This document shows positions 7,703 through 30,275 of a stretch of DNA of 49,524 bases, in pieces (position 1 is the stretch's first letter; each line of letters opens with the position of its first letter). Position numbers and translations under genes: made by a program. The stretch is from a virus, in the IMG/VR virus record IMGVR_UViG_3300006163_000006, positions 1 to 49,524 of that record; one strand, given 5' to 3'. Under the pieces are notes generated by a model. It made no database searches. It saw nothing but the letters and a program-made list of their open reading frames with translations, and was not told the origin of the DNA.

Positions 7703-7736
7703 AGGGACGTCCAGCTGTTTCGGGCGTCCTTTTTTA
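7703..7736 (+). terminator. Rho-independent terminator of the plus-strand late operon
   Basis: GGACG (7705-7709) and CGTCC (7725-7729) form a stem followed by six T residues (7730-7735). The T tract runs into the stop codon of the convergent minus-strand gene. In the minus direction no T tract follows the stem, so termination should be one-way. Confidence 0.75.
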
Positions 7737-8432
7737 TCGATCTAAATAGTCGCGCTCCTCCTTTTCACCAGCTGTCAGCTTTTTCTCACCGTCGTTTTCG
7801 GGACCGAACACAGACTTGCGCTGGCCGCCATCTTCATAGATGGTGCCGACGTGCTGACATTTCGGCAGTTCGAATGAACCTTCCGCTCGGTGGTCTTGTG
7901 TTGTCACATGCGACTGACAGACTTCGCACTGCCAATGAATCTTGTCATTGCCGCTGACGCCTTCGAACGCAAAACCCTGCGATTGGTATACCGTGTTAAC
8001 GCGGCCGAGCGCGCCGTGTTGCGTCTTGGCGAATTCAATCAGGTTACTTATAGCCTTGATGGCATTGATCAAATCGCCCGGACCTTGCCATTGAGAAGTG
8101 ACGCGCACCACAAACTCCTCGTCGCTGCCGGTGATTTCGTTGGCGTCCAAGAAGCGCTGTATAAGCGGATTCTTTTCTGCGTAATCATCACCGGGCGCCA
8201 TCAGCGGTACGCTGCGTCCTAGTTCGTATTGCGAAAGCAGCTTTTCGGTGTAGTGCAAAGCCTTATTCAAGTCTTTCAGCCCATCCTTGTTCCGCCACCG
8301 CGTTACATATTTCGTAATGCAGCCTTCCAGATAGCGACCTTCTAACACTTCCGCGACGAAGTCCCAGTGCTGGTGCTCACTGCGGTAGTGTGCTCCGCCT
8401 ACTTGTCTACTATTAACGTTTGGTGTTGTCAT
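7734..8432 (-). CDS. DUF3310 protein, possible nucleotide kinase
   Basis: 232 residues. The N-terminal ~70 residues match DUF3310: VGGAHYR...HWDFV, then CITKYVTRWRNKDGLKDLNK. Phage T7 gp1.7, a nucleotide kinase acting on dTMP/dGMP, is commonly placed with this family (from memory). The middle (about 85-150) is unfamiliar. The C-terminus has a CxxC...H..C pattern (CEVCQSH, KCQH) suggestive of a metal site and a charged tail. Start overlaps the HD gene stop (ATGA). As the last gene of the modification cluster it could phosphorylate an unusual deoxynucleoside monophosphate; that is inference. Confidence 0.75.
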   Translation of the reverse strand: MTTPNVNSRQVGGAHYRSEHQHWDFVAEVLEGRYLEGCITKYVTRWRNKDGLKDLNKALHYTEKLLSQYELGRSVPLMAPGDDYAEKNPLIQRFLDANEITGSDEEFVVRVTSQWQGPGDLINAIKAISNLIEFAKTQHGALGRVNTVYQSQGFAFEGVSGNDKIHWQCEVCQSHVTTQDHRAEGSFELPKCQHVGTIYEDGGQRKSVFGPENDGEKKLTAGEKEERDYLDR

Positions 8433-8986
8433 TTTGATACCTTCGCAAATAAATTACAGATGGCCATATGAATCTTGACCGCCGGATGTTCGAAGCGCAG
8501 ACTATTCGTGACGTCTGTCACATACCCATTCGCGCGACCGAACACAACTTTCATGTTCGAATTACCTACACGGATTTCACGTATGCAGAACAATAAGCAT
8601 TCCATTGCATCCGCCAGCCGCAACCACTTTTCTTCTGCGTCTGTCAGTATCGGTGCTGGGCCAAAGTAGGCTTCAGCGTGCTGCTCCTCTATACGACCTA
8701 AAGATTCCCTGAACCCGTCGCCTAAAAGACGCTTCGTCGGGGAAGGTATATCGCCGATGGCGTACTCGGCTATATCGTGGCGTAACGCAGCTATCAATAA
8801 CTGCGCGCTGGGCTTACCATCGCAGAACAGCATACACAGCCACGCCACGCCAAAGCTGTGATCCGCGATGTTTTGTTGCGCATGTGTGCGCGTAATGTGG
8901 TAACGGGTGGACTCGCTACCGTCAATCAGCGCTTCCAGCGTCTGCTCCCAACTGTTCCCGTTCATCGCTTCCTGAGCTAACGGCAT
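8429..8986 (-). CDS. HD-domain phosphohydrolase, YfbR-like 5'-deoxynucleotidase
   Basis: 185 residues. It matches the YfbR/phage HD group: RYHITRTHAQQNIADHSFG (His43), then ALRHDIAEYAIGDIPSPTK (His70-Asp71) and a later Asp in LADAMEC, the H...HD...D metal set. YfbR enzymes remove phosphate from deoxynucleoside monophosphates; some phage relatives act on dNTPs. Start has a strong GAGGAG site and lies inside the 3' end of the TS-like gene (65-nt overlap). Next to a TS-fold enzyme, a role in removing a competing natural nucleotide is plausible. Confidence 0.85.
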   Translation of the reverse strand: MPLAQEAMNGNSWEQTLEALIDGSESTRYHITRTHAQQNIADHSFGVAWLCMLFCDGKPSAQLLIAALRHDIAEYAIGDIPSPTKRLLGDGFRESLGRIEEQHAEAYFGPAPILTDAEEKWLRLADAMECLLFCIREIRVGNSNMKVVFGRANGYVTDVTNSLRFEHPAVKIHMAICNLFAKVSK

Positions 8987-10043
8987 CTTGTTTCTCCTCG
9001 GGTTGAACTTCTTTATCGATGCGGCGCGCTATCCAGCCGATGCAGGCGATGCGCCAATCGTCCGCCACGATGGCGGACGCTTCCTCAAGTCCGTCGCTTT
9101 GCTTGTTCTTACGACGGCGCCATGCGTTAAGCATTGGCTGCGCCACATGGCTGAAGAACGGATCGTGATATATTTGACCGGGGACCAACGCCTGCGCCAA
9201 GAAGTTATTCAAGTCTTTCTGCCATGCGTACATATCGACAGAAACCAACGGAACGCGCGTAACGATTTCTTCGGCGGACCAGTCATTGCGCAATTTGGCG
9301 TCGCCATAATAATCGTAATCATATGCGCTGTCTATCATTTCTTGATACTTTTCCGGCGCCAGAATGTTCGTATAAGCGTGGAAGTTATTGCTGAACTGGA
9401 AATACGAGCCGACCGGTACTCCGATGGCCGCAGCAATGTACTCCTGAAGGATGGACATATGTACCGCGTTGGCGCCGTAAGCTCCCCAGATAATGTCATT
9501 ACTGCGGCAGCACACGGTCATATCCAGGCCGGTCAAGCCGATGCTGAAGTAGATATGTGTATTGCAGGGCAGGTCTACGCCGCTGGCCGGATAAGCCGTA
9601 CCGCGCTTCCATAGATCACCTTCCGGGTGCCACATGGCCAGCACGGCGCGGCGTGTGGTGGGTTCCGTACGCAACAGGCGTATGATGTGGTTCAGTTGAT
9701 CCTGACCAAAATGGTTGCGCCAGCGGTGGCCATACGCGCCATGAACAGTCAAGCCGTCGTCACTGTACAGGCCGAACTTGCTGTTGAATTGCTGCGGCCA
9801 CGCCACGTCGTTATGTCCGCCCAGCATCCACAATGCTTCCATCAAATGGAAGAATGGATTGGCGTCGCGCAGTGGACTGAACAGAACGCGGTCCTTGGGA
9901 TTTTCGTATTCCGTGATAACCGGCCCCGGCGCCACCAATACTTCGCCATTACGACTCGGCGCTTTTACCGCTACCTTTTTCAGCAGACTTAGACCCTCGC
10001 CGAGCGCTTCGTTTACGTTTTTTGCTTGAACTATGTACGGCAT
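8922..10043 (-). CDS. Thymidylate synthase-fold enzyme, probable dUMP hydroxymethylase or thymidylate synthase
   Basis: 373 residues. Thymidylate-synthase landmarks: FFHLMEALWMLGG (65-77), YGHRWR (104-109), catalytic Cys160 in VDLPCNTHIYF, RSND (180-183), GANAVHM with Asn192, and FHAY (221-224). Retention of Asn at about 192 rather than the Asp of dCMP hydroxymethylases favours a uracil substrate. The Cys is followed by Asn instead of the usual His, and the C-terminus lacks the canonical TS tail. These traits are shared by phage TS-like enzymes tied to thymine hypermodification. It would use methylene-THF to make TMP or hydroxymethyl-dUMP. AAGGAGCG precedes the ATG. The fold is certain; the exact product is not. 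Confidence 0.85.
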   Translation of the reverse strand: MPYIVQAKNVNEALGEGLSLLKKVAVKAPSRNGEVLVAPGPVITEYENPKDRVLFSPLRDANPFFHLMEALWMLGGHNDVAWPQQFNSKFGLYSDDGLTVHGAYGHRWRNHFGQDQLNHIIRLLRTEPTTRRAVLAMWHPEGDLWKRGTAYPASGVDLPCNTHIYFSIGLTGLDMTVCCRSNDIIWGAYGANAVHMSILQEYIAAAIGVPVGSYFQFSNNFHAYTNILAPEKYQEMIDSAYDYDYYGDAKLRNDWSAEEIVTRVPLVSVDMYAWQKDLNNFLAQALVPGQIYHDPFFSHVAQPMLNAWRRRKNKQSDGLEEASAIVADDWRIACIGWIARRIDKEVQPEEKQDAVSSGSDEREQLGADAGSAD

Positions 10044-10302
10044 TTTCTCGCTCCTTTTGCGTTTTGATTATCGCGACTAATTGACGCGCGCTTACTGCTA
10101 CAGCGCCGGCCGCGATAGCGGCGCTGCGTTTACTGCGGCATACATTATAATGCAGTACACCGCTATTTGAATAATGAGCCCACTGGCGCCGCACGCCGAT
10201 GTTATCCGCCATCGCGTGCAGTTCTTTTTCTGTATCCGCTATCATATGGCACATCACCATGCGGCCAAATTGCCACGCAGATTCGTCTACGTAGACGGCC
10301 AT
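9949..10302 (-). CDS. DUF4031 family protein
   Basis: 117 residues from the ATG at 10302, chosen because AAAGGAGGTGATAAC directly precedes it. The first ~80 residues match DUF4031: MAVYVDESAWQFGRM, CHMIADTEKELHAMADNIG, WAHYSNSGVLHYNV, AAIAAGAV. Function of the family is unknown. The C-terminal tail is Lys/Arg/Ser-rich and encoded within a 95-nt overlap with the TS-like gene start. Confidence 0.8.
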   Translation of the reverse strand: MAVYVDESAWQFGRMVMCHMIADTEKELHAMADNIGVRRQWAHYSNSGVLHYNVCRSKRSAAIAAGAVAVSARQLVAIIKTQKERENAVHSSSKKRKRSARRGSKSAEKGSGKSAES

Positions 10303-10523
10303 GTTATCACCTCCTTTTGTGTCTCCGACACGGATTTTAGCCAATGCGCTTCCTCTCCTTGGAAGCTAAGATACCAGCCATTACGCACTGCGTCAAACGC
10401 AAACCAGTTCGGATAGCCGGCGATCGTAACGCGTTTAATCCAAGTCGGCTCGTCCATGATGTTGCCGAAATAATGCGTGGCGCCGGACGGCGCTTCTACG
10501 TCAACTCTCACTCTTATTTTCAT
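10287..10523 (-). CDS. Small hypothetical protein
   Basis: 78 residues, acidic and Trp-rich (TWIKRV, NWFAFDAV, GWYLSF, AHWLKS). It starts 2 nt after the stop of the preceding gene and overlaps the DUF4031 start by 16 nt, so it belongs to the modification operon. No recognised domain; possibly a small beta-rich protein. Confidence 0.65.
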   Translation of the reverse strand: MKIRVRVDVEAPSGATHYFGNIMDEPTWIKRVTIAGYPNWFAFDAVRNGWYLSFQGEEAHWLKSVSETQKEVITWPST

Positions 10524-10525
10524 GA

Positions 10526-11467
10526 CTACACGCCTGCGTACAGCGAACGCGGCCGTCCTTCACCTAAGCGCGTGCGCTCGTATTTATCAAACTCACACAG
10601 ACAGTTCTGCAAGTCCTGCGCGTGCAGCTTAGGCGCATAGACACGTCTGTCTTTTTCGTCTACCATTATGTGGTACACGCGCAATGTCTTATTGACGTCG
10701 CCGCGTAGAAAGTCCAACCGCTGCCACCAGTCCTTCTCGCGCCACGGCGAATTCAATGGTCGTTGCTCTACGCGATTAAGGCCGCGACGGCTGCCCGGCC
10801 CACTGGCGGCCCATGTCCACCAGTCCTCGGCGGCGTTGAGCGGCTGAATGTACTTCAAATCCGCCACCACTTGCCCGGCCATGAAACTTCCCATGCCGTT
10901 AAATGAAGATAGTCGTTCATGATACGACGCCAGCGTTTCAGGCGCTTGTCGTGGAAAGTTGGCGTGCAGCGGGCGCATCCCACGGCGAGCATCCCAGAGC
11001 GGCGTCAAGACGTGCTTCGCCAGGTACTCCGCCTTGTCCATCGTGTGGCCATTGGTACTGACGATGTAAGCGCCACTGAATACCTTTAAGCCGGCGTCGC
11101 GTCGTGCGTGCAGCTTCTTTACGAATACGCGCCCGCCGCCCCATGCGCTCGGGTACAGTCCAAGATCAAGCAGCGTCTCCGGCCAGTTCACCAGACGCGC
11201 CACCACCATCCAGAACCAGATGTCCGGGTTTTGCCAGTGCGGGTCGCGCCAGTTCTTAGCGATCCATTGTGTGACTGTGTCCAGCTCCCGGTACACGTTG
11301 CAGAATCGGTAGGATTGTAGAATTTTATCATCGGTCCACGGCTTGGGCAGCAGCGCTTTTCTTTTTAGATAAACGCTATGGCGCTCGATTATGAAATAGC
11401 ATAACCGATCAATATTATTGTTTGAATCTTTGAGCATTTTGTAGTCGTGCCATAACTGTCCGCTCAT
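10526..11467 (-). CDS. 5-hmdU DNA kinase helical-domain / alpha-glutamyl-putrescinyl-thymine pyrophosphorylase-like protein
   Basis: 313 residues. Residues ~53-69 read YRFCNVYRELDTVTQWI, the characteristic start of the helical, DNA-glycosylase-like domain first described as alpha-glutamyl/putrescinyl thymine pyrophosphorylase and later linked to 5-hydroxymethyl-dU DNA kinases of phages with hypermodified thymine. A helix-hairpin-helix-like stretch (SSFNGMGSFMAGQVVADL, about 186-203) and a Trp-rich part follow. I see no P-loop, so any kinase activity would need a separate protein. Overlaps the glycosyltransferase-like gene by 4 nt (ATGA), indicating joint translation. Family call from motif recognition; substrate inferred. 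Confidence 0.65.
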   Translation of the reverse strand: MSGQLWHDYKMLKDSNNNIDRLCYFIIERHSVYLKRKALLPKPWTDDKILQSYRFCNVYRELDTVTQWIAKNWRDPHWQNPDIWFWMVVARLVNWPETLLDLGLYPSAWGGGRVFVKKLHARRDAGLKVFSGAYIVSTNGHTMDKAEYLAKHVLTPLWDARRGMRPLHANFPRQAPETLASYHERLSSFNGMGSFMAGQVVADLKYIQPLNAAEDWWTWAASGPGSRRGLNRVEQRPLNSPWREKDWWQRLDFLRGDVNKTLRVYHIMVDEKDRRVYAPKLHAQDLQNCLCEFDKYERTRLGEGRPRSLYAGV

Positions 11468-12273
11468 AATTGCGGTCTCCTGTCAGCAGGGTGGGAACTC
11501 TCGTAAGCCTTCTTCCATTGCATTTGAACATCTGTGCGCACGCCGCCGCCCCATGCGGTCTTCGTTTCTTTCTGCACTACTTTAACGAAGCCGGGGTGTA
11601 GCTCGGCTAAGTGCTCCGAAACCAGCCGTTGCATTTCTTCGGTTCTATAGACGCTGCATCCGCCGGCCGCGCCACTGCCGCGCTGATTGTGGCACCACTG
11701 GTAAGAAACAATATTGGCGTGACCAGCGCGCAGCAATTGCAGCGTCATATCAAAGTCTTGTTTAATGGGGACGCGATCAAAGCGTGCTTTCACTTTCATA
11801 ACTTGGCGCGTGTCGTATGCCAGCACGCGCATCATACGAGTGTTGTTGGTGTAATTGGTGACGATACGATTGGCGCCTTCCCGCGCTGCTATGCCTGCGT
11901 GCGTGTATTTCTCCAGCTGATGGTAAAGCCAGTGGAACATATCCGCCACGCTATTGTGACTCGCCGCTACATAATTTATTGAGTACTTTGGGCGCACGGC
12001 AAACGTCAGGTCATCATCAATGAGTATGATTTTCGGTTCGCGAGTATTGGCAAATCTCTCTACTAGATATTGACGGGTCGGACTTAGTTGCTTTATACGC
12101 GCAGGTAATACCAAGATGCCCAGCTGCAATTCAACCGCGATGGGTCGGTACTGCTTAGCCTCTTGCGATTGTACGACAAGGTAAGTTTGACTCTTGAAGA
12201 AAGGCGGTATGCTGCGCGCTGTGTGTTGCAGCGCCATGTCGGCGCGGCCGGATGTGTGGATCAATATTGGCAT
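11464..12273 (-). CDS. TAGT-like glycosyltransferase (GT-A fold), probable DNA-base glycosyltransferase
   Basis: 269 residues from ATG 12273; a longer TTG start at 12318 lies in the upstream terminator and is rejected. MPILIHTSGRA opens a GT-A-like fold; TRQYLVERFA then KIILIDDDLTF gives the DxD-type metal motif at 86-88. KQDFDMTLQLLRAGHANIVSY and a GGCSVYRT motif are typical of the TET-associated glycosyltransferase group of phages, thought to glycosylate hydroxymethylated bases. No TET/JBP oxygenase is obvious next to it; here the hydroxymethyl donor could be the TS-like enzyme. First gene of its operon, just after a terminator. Confidence 0.65.
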   Translation of the reverse strand: MPILIHTSGRADMALQHTARSIPPFFKSQTYLVVQSQEAKQYRPIAVELQLGILVLPARIKQLSPTRQYLVERFANTREPKIILIDDDLTFAVRPKYSINYVAASHNSVADMFHWLYHQLEKYTHAGIAAREGANRIVTNYTNNTRMMRVLAYDTRQVMKVKARFDRVPIKQDFDMTLQLLRAGHANIVSYQWCHNQRGSGAAGGCSVYRTEEMQRLVSEHLAELHPGFVKVVQKETKTAWGGGVRTDVQMQWKKAYESSHPADRRPQL

Positions 12274-22716: not shown

Positions 22717-24039
22717 TTAGCGGCCCTTGTTCAGCAGATTGAACGGCATGGCGCCGCTCATGGTTTCCGGCATGGTGGTCAGCAGATTGTTGTAGACGCG
22801 TTTCTTGACCTTGTGTTCCTTGGCGTATGTACCGCCAAACGTCAAGCCGTGGCGCTCCGCTTTCAGTTGTTTGCGCGTCGCCTTTCCAGCATAGAACGCT
22901 TCGGTGTCCAGACGCGCTTGTTCCAGCGCTGCTTCGCCACGCCGCTCCATGGTCATGTCGCTGTTCCAGCGCCCGGTAAGCAGCGGCTGCTTAGAGAATA
23001 AACGCTTCAGATCGTTGAATACAGCTTTTTCGTCCCATCCACGTGGCTCAATACCGTTGATGGTTATGGAGACGCCATCCAGTCTACCCAGCTGTCCGTT
23101 CATAAGAACTTCGGCTTGGCGCGCTGTCTTCATTTTATGTGCTACGGCTTTTTCGCAGTCCCAGCCGTTGGCTACCAGCTTATCCACTTCTTCCTTAGTG
23201 GGCTGGCCGTCCGTTGTTTTGCCATTGAGCCATGCCAGAACGCGGGCTTCCAGCGCATCGAAGTCCATAGTCGCAAAACGGCGGGCGGTACGGGTCGCCA
23301 GCACGTCGGAGTTACCCTCGCCGAACAGCTTGTTGTATTGTCCCGGCGCCAGTGCTGCGTCAGGCGCAGGTTCTTTCGTATACGGGTCGCAGGCTTGGCG
23401 CGGGCCATTGTAGCGCTGGTCAAGATACTGAACGCGCTCGATGAACGCCACCATATCTTTCATATGGAAACCCTGCATGTCGCGCCATTGCTGCACAGCG
23501 GTGATCTCGCGTGGCGTGAACGCACTGATGCACGCACGACAGCGGCAGCGGGTGGCTCCATGTGTGTGTGCTGGCCCGCCCATCAGGTGAACCATCTGAG
23601 TGAAAGGGCTGGCGCCGTATTCCGCCATCTGGCGAATACGTTTCCGCCACTCAGAAAGAATTTGCGAAACGGGCTTGGAGCCAACGCGGATGCCTTGAAC
23701 CTGTACAAAAGATTCAGGTTGCGCGCCCAGCGCTGCCTGAATCTCAGAGTCGTTCTTTATTTCATCCAACGTCATGTGCATGATACGTGGACATGGTTGC
23801 GGACCGGGTCGATTGATTCGCGATTCTTTCTGATCGTTAGCCAGACGACGCATTTCTTTTATCATTTCATATTTATTTGGCAGTTCTTCCGCAGGTGTGT
23901 TTGAGACTGTACCCACCATGGATTCAAACTGCGCACGCAGCATATGCCGCGCTAACTGAGCTGCCTTTTCGCAATTTTGTATTCCTTTGTTTGGGACGCG
24001 GGCAGTAGAACCATCGCTGGATGTGATAGTTTCGTTCAT
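22717..24039 (-). CDS. 440-residue replication-region protein with polymerase-A-like motifs
   Basis: 440 residues, first gene of a unit under a strong promoter; start has AGGAGAAATAGC. The N-terminal half is helical and includes a Cys-rich patch (RCRCRAC, 164-170). Residues 258-274 read MDFDALEARVLAWLNGK, strikingly like motif A of family A polymerases, followed by GWDCEKAVAHKM. Near 389-403 RKQLKAERHGLTFGG has the R...K....G...G spacing of motif B. There is no motif C, and the A-B distance is too long, so an active polymerase is unlikely. It may be a diverged relative or a chance match. Function unknown. Confidence 0.6.
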   Translation of the reverse strand: MNETITSSDGSTARVPNKGIQNCEKAAQLARHMLRAQFESMVGTVSNTPAEELPNKYEMIKEMRRLANDQKESRINRPGPQPCPRIMHMTLDEIKNDSEIQAALGAQPESFVQVQGIRVGSKPVSQILSEWRKRIRQMAEYGASPFTQMVHLMGGPAHTHGATRCRCRACISAFTPREITAVQQWRDMQGFHMKDMVAFIERVQYLDQRYNGPRQACDPYTKEPAPDAALAPGQYNKLFGEGNSDVLATRTARRFATMDFDALEARVLAWLNGKTTDGQPTKEEVDKLVANGWDCEKAVAHKMKTARQAEVLMNGQLGRLDGVSITINGIEPRGWDEKAVFNDLKRLFSKQPLLTGRWNSDMTMERRGEAALEQARLDTEAFYAGKATRKQLKAERHGLTFGGTYAKEHKVKKRVYNNLLTTMPETMSGAMPFNLLNKGR

Positions 24040-29494: not shown

Positions 29495-29727
29495 GGCAGC
29501 TCCTTTGTGTAAGGTGCCAGCGCTTCCGTCATCTCTTTGGCGTACTTCTCCAAGCTGACGGCAACGTCGTGGACTGTGATCTCAGCGTCTTCGTCTAGAA
29601 ATTTGTTGACCACGGCAACGACGTTCGCATGATTTTGCGCGTAGTAGTCCAAGCGCTGGCGGTACATGTTCTGATAAGTAGCTTCGTCCGCTGCCGTCCA
29701 TATGATTGGCGCGCGTTGTTTGTTCAT
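29491..29727 (-). CDS. Small hypothetical protein
   Basis: 78 residues from ATG 29727 (ATGA overlap with the beta-barrel gene). Helical and Tyr/Ala-rich: EATYQNMYRQRLDYYAQNHA, EITVHDVAVSLEKYAKEMTE. No family recognised. Confidence 0.55.
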   Translation of the reverse strand: MNKQRAPIIWTAADEATYQNMYRQRLDYYAQNHANVVAVVNKFLDEDAEITVHDVAVSLEKYAKEMTEALAPYTKELP

Positions 29728-30275
29728 AGCTGCCACCGAAAGCCGACGGACATGAATTCCTCGGGCACTACATGGAAAACGATAGCGGCGCGTCCGTAGG
29801 TGACTGCAACGTTAGGGACGATAACGGGCGCCCATGCTCCGACTGTTGAAAGGTGGTTACGGTAGCCGGTAACGGCGCCCACTTCGGCACCGACTTCGAT
29901 GTGTGGCAGCACCTGCCAGCTAAAACGCCGAGCAAGAAGGACAGAGCGATTGTAGTAGGAATTTTTAAACGTTGAAACACCCCAATGTTCATGCTCATAT
30001 CCTATGAGATCGTGGTTGCTGTTGTAGTCGTAGCGATTGTTGAAATGCGCGCTCCACGCACCTACATAAATATAGTCCATGTATTCTTTCTTGTCGGCGC
30101 CGCACTCATCTTTAACCATGCAACGGAACTCGGCGTCTTCGTATACCGGGCCGCCGTCGCCGAGGTAGTCTTGTGCGTGCGCTTTGGGAGTGAATAGTGA
30201 AGCAATGAAAATGAGTACAGCGATGAACAGCAGGTAAAGCAGGAGGTACTTACAAACTCTAATTAAAGGTTCCAT
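29724..30275 (-). CDS. Exported beta-barrel-like protein (PagL/PagP-like, uncertain)
   Basis: 183 residues. The signal peptide is very hydrophobic (YLLLYLLFIAVLIFIASLF) and ends AKAHA, like an AxA site. The mature part has alternating, aromatic-rich strands (DYIYVGAWSAHFNNRYDYNS, EHWGVSTFKNSYYNRSVLLA, HIEVGAEVGAVTGYRNHLST, EEFMSVGFRWQL) and ends in an aromatic-containing strand, as outer-membrane barrels do. It resembles small lipid-A-modifying barrels only loosely. It is the first gene after a strong promoter. A role in superinfection exclusion is conceivable. Confidence 0.55.
   Translation of the reverse strand: MEPLIRVCKYLLLYLLFIAVLIFIASLFTPKAHAQDYLGDGGPVYEDAEFRCMVKDECGADKKEYMDYIYVGAWSAHFNNRYDYNSNHDLIGYEHEHWGVSTFKNSYYNRSVLLARRFSWQVLPHIEVGAEVGAVTGYRNHLSTVGAWAPVIVPNVAVTYGRAAIVFHVVPEEFMSVGFRWQL

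Follow-up and report, generated by a model that had tools for sequence, protein, structure and literature searches.

The window, namely the entire 49,524-nucleotide stretch of viral DNA analysed here, carries a gene for a helical protein of the PF18723 (HMUDK_hel) family, for which HEL is used as a working name and of which aGPT-PPlase1 is the older name. HEL and its neighbours are listed in Table 1. In a Pfam search, residues 19–302 of HEL matched positions 4–277 of the 281-position PF18723 model (E = 5.7e-45; 154 bits, cut-off 25), indicating a full-length member of the family, and its PHROG match is phrog_2396. The family residues R29, D47, F55, N57, R60, D63, K145, F195 and D203 are kept in HEL, as are GPG 223–225, C291-E292 and K295-Y296; those found to be invariant are R29, F55, N57, R60, D63, F195, G223, G225, C291, E292, K295 and Y296.

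Table 1 Genes of the HEL locus and their positions in the window
Coordinates	Strand	Feature	Basis
7734..8432	-	DUF3310-like protein (phrog_5839)	PHROG match
8429..8986	-	HD-domain phosphohydrolase (YfbR-like)	Pfam
8922..10043	-	Thymidylate-synthase-fold pyrimidine hydroxymethylase, dUMP type	Family match; Asn at base-selecting position, RSNDIIWGAYGANAV
9949..10299	-	Small protein (phrog_4887) encoded between the HEL and hydroxymethylase genes; probable start codon ATG 10299	PHROG match
10287..10523	-	78-aa ORF directly after HEL	ORF list
10526..11467	-	HEL, helical protein of PF18723 (313 aa) with a predicted HhH/DNA-glycosylase-like fold	Pfam, AlphaFold, structure comparison
11464..12273	-	TAGT-type (PF20691) glycosyltransferase, ~269 aa from ATG 12273; ORF opens at TTG 12318	Pfam, alignment

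The gene upstream of HEL encodes a TAGT-type glycosyltransferase that matches PF20691 with 49 bits (cut-off 27.5) and also phrog_842. Its DDD motif is intact, with invariant D87-D88-D89 and also R68 in alignment numbering. The TAGT stop and the HEL start overlap by 4 nt (ATGA, 11467–11464), and the two genes are probably translationally coupled. The base-selecting position of the thymidylate synthase (TS) proteins found in such cassettes is Asn in 72 of 73 and Asp in none. Family and cassette context suggest that the enzyme of the window hydroxymethylates rather than methylates its substrate. The HD phosphohydrolase probably controls the nucleotide pool, and a homolog of the DUF3310-like gene comes after the HD gene in many relatives.

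A preliminary description of this locus had stated that HEL contains no Walker A motif and has no P-loop kinase beside it, and had proposed a genome-wide kinase search. Consistently, the motif [AG]x4GK[ST] is absent from the 313 residues of HEL, and a Pfam search with the protein gave no kinase family match. A six-frame scan of the 49.5-kb record, which took in every stop-to-stop frame of 60 aa or more, found three Walker A strings and no others: in the terminase large subunit (38692), in ORF 1–1510 (694) and, near 9984, in a stretch rich in lysine. Kinase-like genes contain none of the three, and the terminase is the sole credible gene of the record with a P-loop. A profile built from 25 phage 5-hmdU kinases found no such kinase anywhere in this possibly incomplete 49.5-kb record; the same profile matched seven of seven kinase-phage controls at E values of 2e-54 or lower. 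A kinase concealed in HEL or in the window is ruled out by the Walker A scan and the kinase profile, so both parts of the earlier statement hold.

The further claim that known 5-hmdU kinases combine the helical domain with a P-loop domain is correct for the Bacillus phages Goe26 and SP10, where both are in a single polypeptide, but not for M6 and PaMx11, in which they are encoded by separate genes, nor for ViI, in which these genes are separate and distant. In the SP10/Goe26 type, the same HEL domain (residues 312–597 of Goe26_01450) is covalently joined to the P-loop 5-hmdU kinase domain, and the SP10 protein is 637 aa long. The gene order in M6 is ADDT-PLP-rSAM-kinase (PF18748)-HEL (ORF055)-Nmad5-hydroxymethylase-HD, whereas that in the window is GT-HEL-hydroxymethylase-HD, where GT is the glycosyltransferase. 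The M6/PaMx11 cassette thus resembles the window in having HEL homolog (M6 ORF055, ~35–39% identity), hydroxymethylase and HD genes, all arranged alike. However, the P-loop kinase, ADDT (PF18724), PLP and radical-SAM genes of that cassette are missing from the window. Because the M6 order is kinase-HEL-hydroxymethylase-HD, the kinase slot is held by TAGT in the window. The absence of a kinase had been taken to make HEL odd. This is not borne out: kinase-type and glycosyltransferase-type cassettes both carry HEL with the same invariant residues, and hence nothing suggests a different HEL chemistry here.

TAGT is an established DNA glucosyltransferase of T-even phages (PMC13216743, PMC13390438). 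The T6 enzyme, beta-glucosyl-HMC-alpha-glucosyltransferase, belongs to PF20691 and phrog_842 like the one in the window. It adds a second glucose onto glucosyl-5hmC (PMC13216743), whereas the TAGT in the window is accompanied by a uracil-type hydroxymethylase. The neighbourhood of glycosyltransferase, HEL and TS genes is known from pelagiphages: the available part of PMC9599517 describes TS, aGPT-PPlase1, 5'-deoxynucleotidase and beta-glucosyl-HMC-alpha-glucosyltransferase genes clustered in HTVC023P-type phages, that is, a region with the four kinds of gene that also lie together in the window. In that part, the authors propose a broader function than in Pseudomonas phages and present the cluster as auxiliary genes, without kinase–glycosyltransferase exclusion, partner swapping or a mechanism (PMC9599517).

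HEL relatives were gathered from IMG/VR and GTDB, and their neighbours were scored with purpose-built profiles. A set of 67 loci contained both HEL and a hydroxymethylase, with flanks of 2.5 kb or more in both directions; 28 of them have TAGT, 26 have the kinase, 11 have only a GT-B-like gene and 2 have no partner. Kinase and TAGT occur together in none of the 67 loci (Fisher p = 3e-9 for their exclusion; 8e-8 after 70% dereplication). ADDT, which requires a phosphorylated base, accompanies the kinase in 16 loci and TAGT in none. Because seeding on HEL could bias these counts, TAGT and kinase were used as extra seeds. Narrower glycosyltransferase and kinase alignments were employed, as the broad ones were too diverse; a scan of the collection seeded with a single glycosyltransferase protein gave no matches. 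In the TAGT-seeded set (n = 56, flanks of at least 3 kb), HEL and TS are both present in 53 loci and the kinase in none. In the kinase-seeded set, HEL is present in 46 of 50 loci and a glycosyltransferase in only one. The sole exception seen to the exclusion is a kinase-seeded IMG/VR locus (among L264–L341) with kinase, HEL and TAGT and with no TS in the fetched stretch.

All 72 pairs of glycosyltransferase and HEL genes are co-directional, and 55 of them are adjacent. The order GT-HEL-TS-HD of the window recurs in L002, whose HEL is 60% identical, and the cultured Brevibacterium phage LuckyBarnes, a complete isolate genome, has the order TS-GT-GT-HEL and no kinase match. The partner swap is therefore recurrent, with a glycosyltransferase in the kinase's place here and in many uncultured relatives. 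The overlapping genes, together with the frequency of HEL in the TAGT-seeded loci and the exclusion of TAGT and kinase, back the earlier suggestion that the function of HEL depends on the glycosyltransferase. However, at least two phage records, MW202897 and L210, have TAGT and TS with HEL undetected, so the glycosyltransferase may not strictly need HEL.

Other arrangements were also observed in the HEL partner position. Three further families occupy it in loci without kinase or TAGT: one (family 'FSFNPPTPDGSLANAR') in L020, L023, L031, L032, L060 and L076, and two others in L027, L070, L103 and L107 and in L047 and L071. One of the three has a weak GT-B (Glycos_transf_1) match and the others have no Pfam match; in some of these loci a SPASM radical-SAM gene lies alongside. 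In the HEL-hydroxymethylase locus L023, a gene with a weak, below-cut-off sulfotransferase match (8843–9622) lies between HEL and the putative glycosyltransferase. L077, L078 and L180 (Montesquieu) have HEL and hydroxymethylase genes with no recognised partner transferase nearby. L021, L033, L034, L037, L039, L040, L048 and L061 have HEL-like genes with neither a hydroxymethylase nor a partner nearby, and several of these contigs are at least 100 kb long.

Because the record shows no terminal repeat, a 5-hmdU kinase could sit beyond the recovered record, or else in the host, and HEL would then work as it does in M6. The comparative counts make this very improbable. The kinase-free arrangement of glycosyltransferase and HEL recurs, and the kinase profile matched none of 42 non-kinase records searched as whole records, including the complete LuckyBarnes genome. 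Furthermore, the glycosyltransferase fills the kinase slot, and ADDT is absent from the glycosyltransferase loci.

The history of HEL itself is one of frequent partner exchange. When three partner states were mapped on a tree built from 77 HEL sequences, no fewer than 25 changes were required, and 8 changes of the kinase label are forced by the well-supported branches alone. A column-by-column comparison found no HEL column that separates kinase-type from glycosyltransferase-type proteins beyond shuffled labels. The mean divergence between the two types is 0.137 compared with 0.117 after shuffling, a gap that relatedness can explain. A partner-specific sequence signature in HEL is ruled out by this comparison. 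Because no residue separates the partners and the invariant residues are common to both types, the sequences suggest that HEL most likely does one job regardless of its partner transferase. The many exchanges also disfavour a finely co-adapted HEL interface.

The structure prediction proposed in the preliminary description gave a helix-hairpin-helix (HhH) DNA-glycosylase-like fold for HEL. The AlphaFold2 model, built with 79 sequences, has a pLDDT of 92.6 and a pTM of 0.90. A sequence search found no solved structure of a HEL homolog. Among solved structures, the model is closest to PUGT, the phage 5-PmdU glycinyltransferase (8z2n, Z 10.8; 8z2m, Z 10.0), although all-helical models can reach such Z scores by arrangement alone. 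The next matches are MjOgg (Z 10.2), SsOgg (9.7) and EndoIII (8.2), followed by others down to 2.4, and nearly all matches with Z of at least 5 are HhH glycosylases or PUGT. A fold of the HhH glycosylase superfamily closest to PUGT is thus suggested by the model, with a Z score of about 10 in helical models not being decisive. The earlier description of HEL as glycosylase-like is partly supported, for the fold but not for the activity. The position of the lysine of bifunctional glycosylases appears from the sequence to be taken by the invariant F195, which argues against lyase activity.

PUGT is gp46 of PaMx11 (PDB 8Z2M/8Z2N) and a member of the ADDT family. It matches HEL over ~220 residues and has a similar C-terminal motif, but the two proteins share only 7–8% identity, and the PUGT substrate is 5-phosphomethyl-dU, a kinase product. 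A profile comparison of HEL with ADDT aligned the HhH region and the C-terminal QNCLCEFDKY/ETILCKWKSH motif weakly (E = 0.006), and no PF18724 match to HEL was obtained at E = 0.1. Thus, HEL is not a misnamed ADDT (aGPT-PPlase), as the sequence family is not matched even though the fold is similar. The main rival to a partner role casts HEL as an enzyme in its own right, related as a sister to ADDT and PUGT, which would catalyse a single shared reaction on 5hmdU within DNA, for example condensation, exchange or base processing, with the kinase or glycosyltransferase acting independently. We consider this unlikely, although the closest solved structure, the ADDT alignment and the 12–13 invariant residues, which include R, D, E, K and C and are kept with any partner, are all consistent with it, as is the frequent exchange of partners, which is unlike a tight co-adapted interface. 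However, PUGT needs a phosphomethyl leaving group, which is not expected in a kinase-free phage, HEL has no Pfam ADDT match, and the glycosylase lysine seems to be replaced by F195. In addition, HEL and its partner are co-directional and usually adjacent, and in Bacillus phages HEL and kinase form one polypeptide, which suggests a partner role.

The distribution of HEL among phages with known bases bears on this partner role. HEL is present in M6, PaMx11, ViI and PhiW-14, and in the SP10-like Goe26 it forms one protein with the kinase, whereas HEL and kinase are both absent from SPO1. SPO1 DNA carries plain 5hmdU. HEL therefore tracks the further modification of 5hmdU and not 5hmdU itself, and so it is proposed to bind and probably flip this base for a transferase. 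We favour, with a probability of about 0.6, a mechanism in which HEL handles the 5hmdU of duplex DNA, where it would probably bind and flip this base, for a partner transferase that acts on the hydroxyl, with TAGT adding a sugar in this phage. As judged from the families and the gene order in 5hmdU phages, the hydroxymethylase would make 5-hmdUMP while the HD enzyme would suppress dTMP and dTTP. Thymine in the DNA would then be replaced by 5hmdU. HEL would engage 5hmdU in the DNA, as suggested by its fold, its invariant residues and its occurrence in phages that hypermodify their DNA, in contrast to its absence from SPO1. Finally, TAGT would attach a sugar at the 5-hydroxymethyl oxygen, and the product would be a glycosyl-5hmdU resembling base J. 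In phages of the M6 type, HEL would play this part with a P-loop kinase instead. Since the glycosyltransferase takes the kinase's place, the gene content indicates that the modified thymine of this phage probably bears a sugar, in the form of glycosyl-5hmdU, and not a phosphate. The nearest known case is the Yersinia phage YerA41, in which thymidine carries a bulky substitution, apparently an oligosaccharide, whose structure is unsolved (PMC9023294).

Several observations count against this partner mechanism. Kinase-HEL fusions exist, whereas no GT-HEL fusion was found among the ORFs scanned. The many invariant polar residues of HEL are also compatible with an enzyme. Furthermore, ~20% of the 5hmdU in SP8 DNA is phosphorylated in vitro by a preparation that goes under the name of 5hmdU DNA kinase and whose subunits are not stated in the accessible part of PMC7653180, and hence the kinase may not need a separate HEL. 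HEL could instead be a reader or shield of 5hmdU DNA that protects it from host glycosylases and nucleases until the base is capped. A glycosylase-like fold in which, judging from its position, an invariant Phe replaces the catalytic Lys would suit such a role, glycosylases are known to target 5hmdU DNA (PMC6449724), and HEL is common to all capping chemistries. Nevertheless, this alternative is improbable, because HEL is absent from SPO1, which keeps its 5hmdU naked, and because the operon coupling and kinase fusions suggest a part in the modification.

A more general form of the partner mechanism can be put forward tentatively, with odds somewhat below even: HEL may be a chemistry-agnostic module that presents 5hmdU, handing the flipped base to interchangeable transferases, namely the P-loop kinase, the GT-A type TAGT and several GT-B-like families. 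PF18723 is named for the 5-hmdU kinase, yet it is linked equally tightly to DNA glycosyltransferases. If HEL is such a presenting module, phage thymidine hypermodification would be a plug-in system, and a large group of phages would have glycosylated 5hmdU (base-J-like) DNA. The swap, its frequency and this re-reading of PF18723 appear to be new, whereas the component parts are known.

HEL also occurs in bacterial chromosomes. In GTDB loci L115, L118, L123, L127, L129, L132, L142, L152 and L171, it follows a thymidylate-kinase-like P-loop domain that forms the N-terminal part of the same protein, and a model of the L118 protein matches Tmk with a Z score of 23. These fusions adjoin TS-like genes and, in some loci, XRE and ImmA/IrrE-like genes, resembling the TS/dNMP kinase/5hmdU kinase defence system (PMC13092281). 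In L114, L117, L134 and similar loci, an iterated TS profile found a 270–280-aa protein upstream of the chromosomal HEL; it has no Pfam match and is either a degenerate TS-like protein or a product of profile drift. Elsewhere in the window, the minus strand carries a 440-aa ORF without Pfam or PHROG match (22717–24039) and a 183-aa ORF (29724–30275) that matches part of the phrog_3600 profile, named for the lipid A acylation protein PagP.
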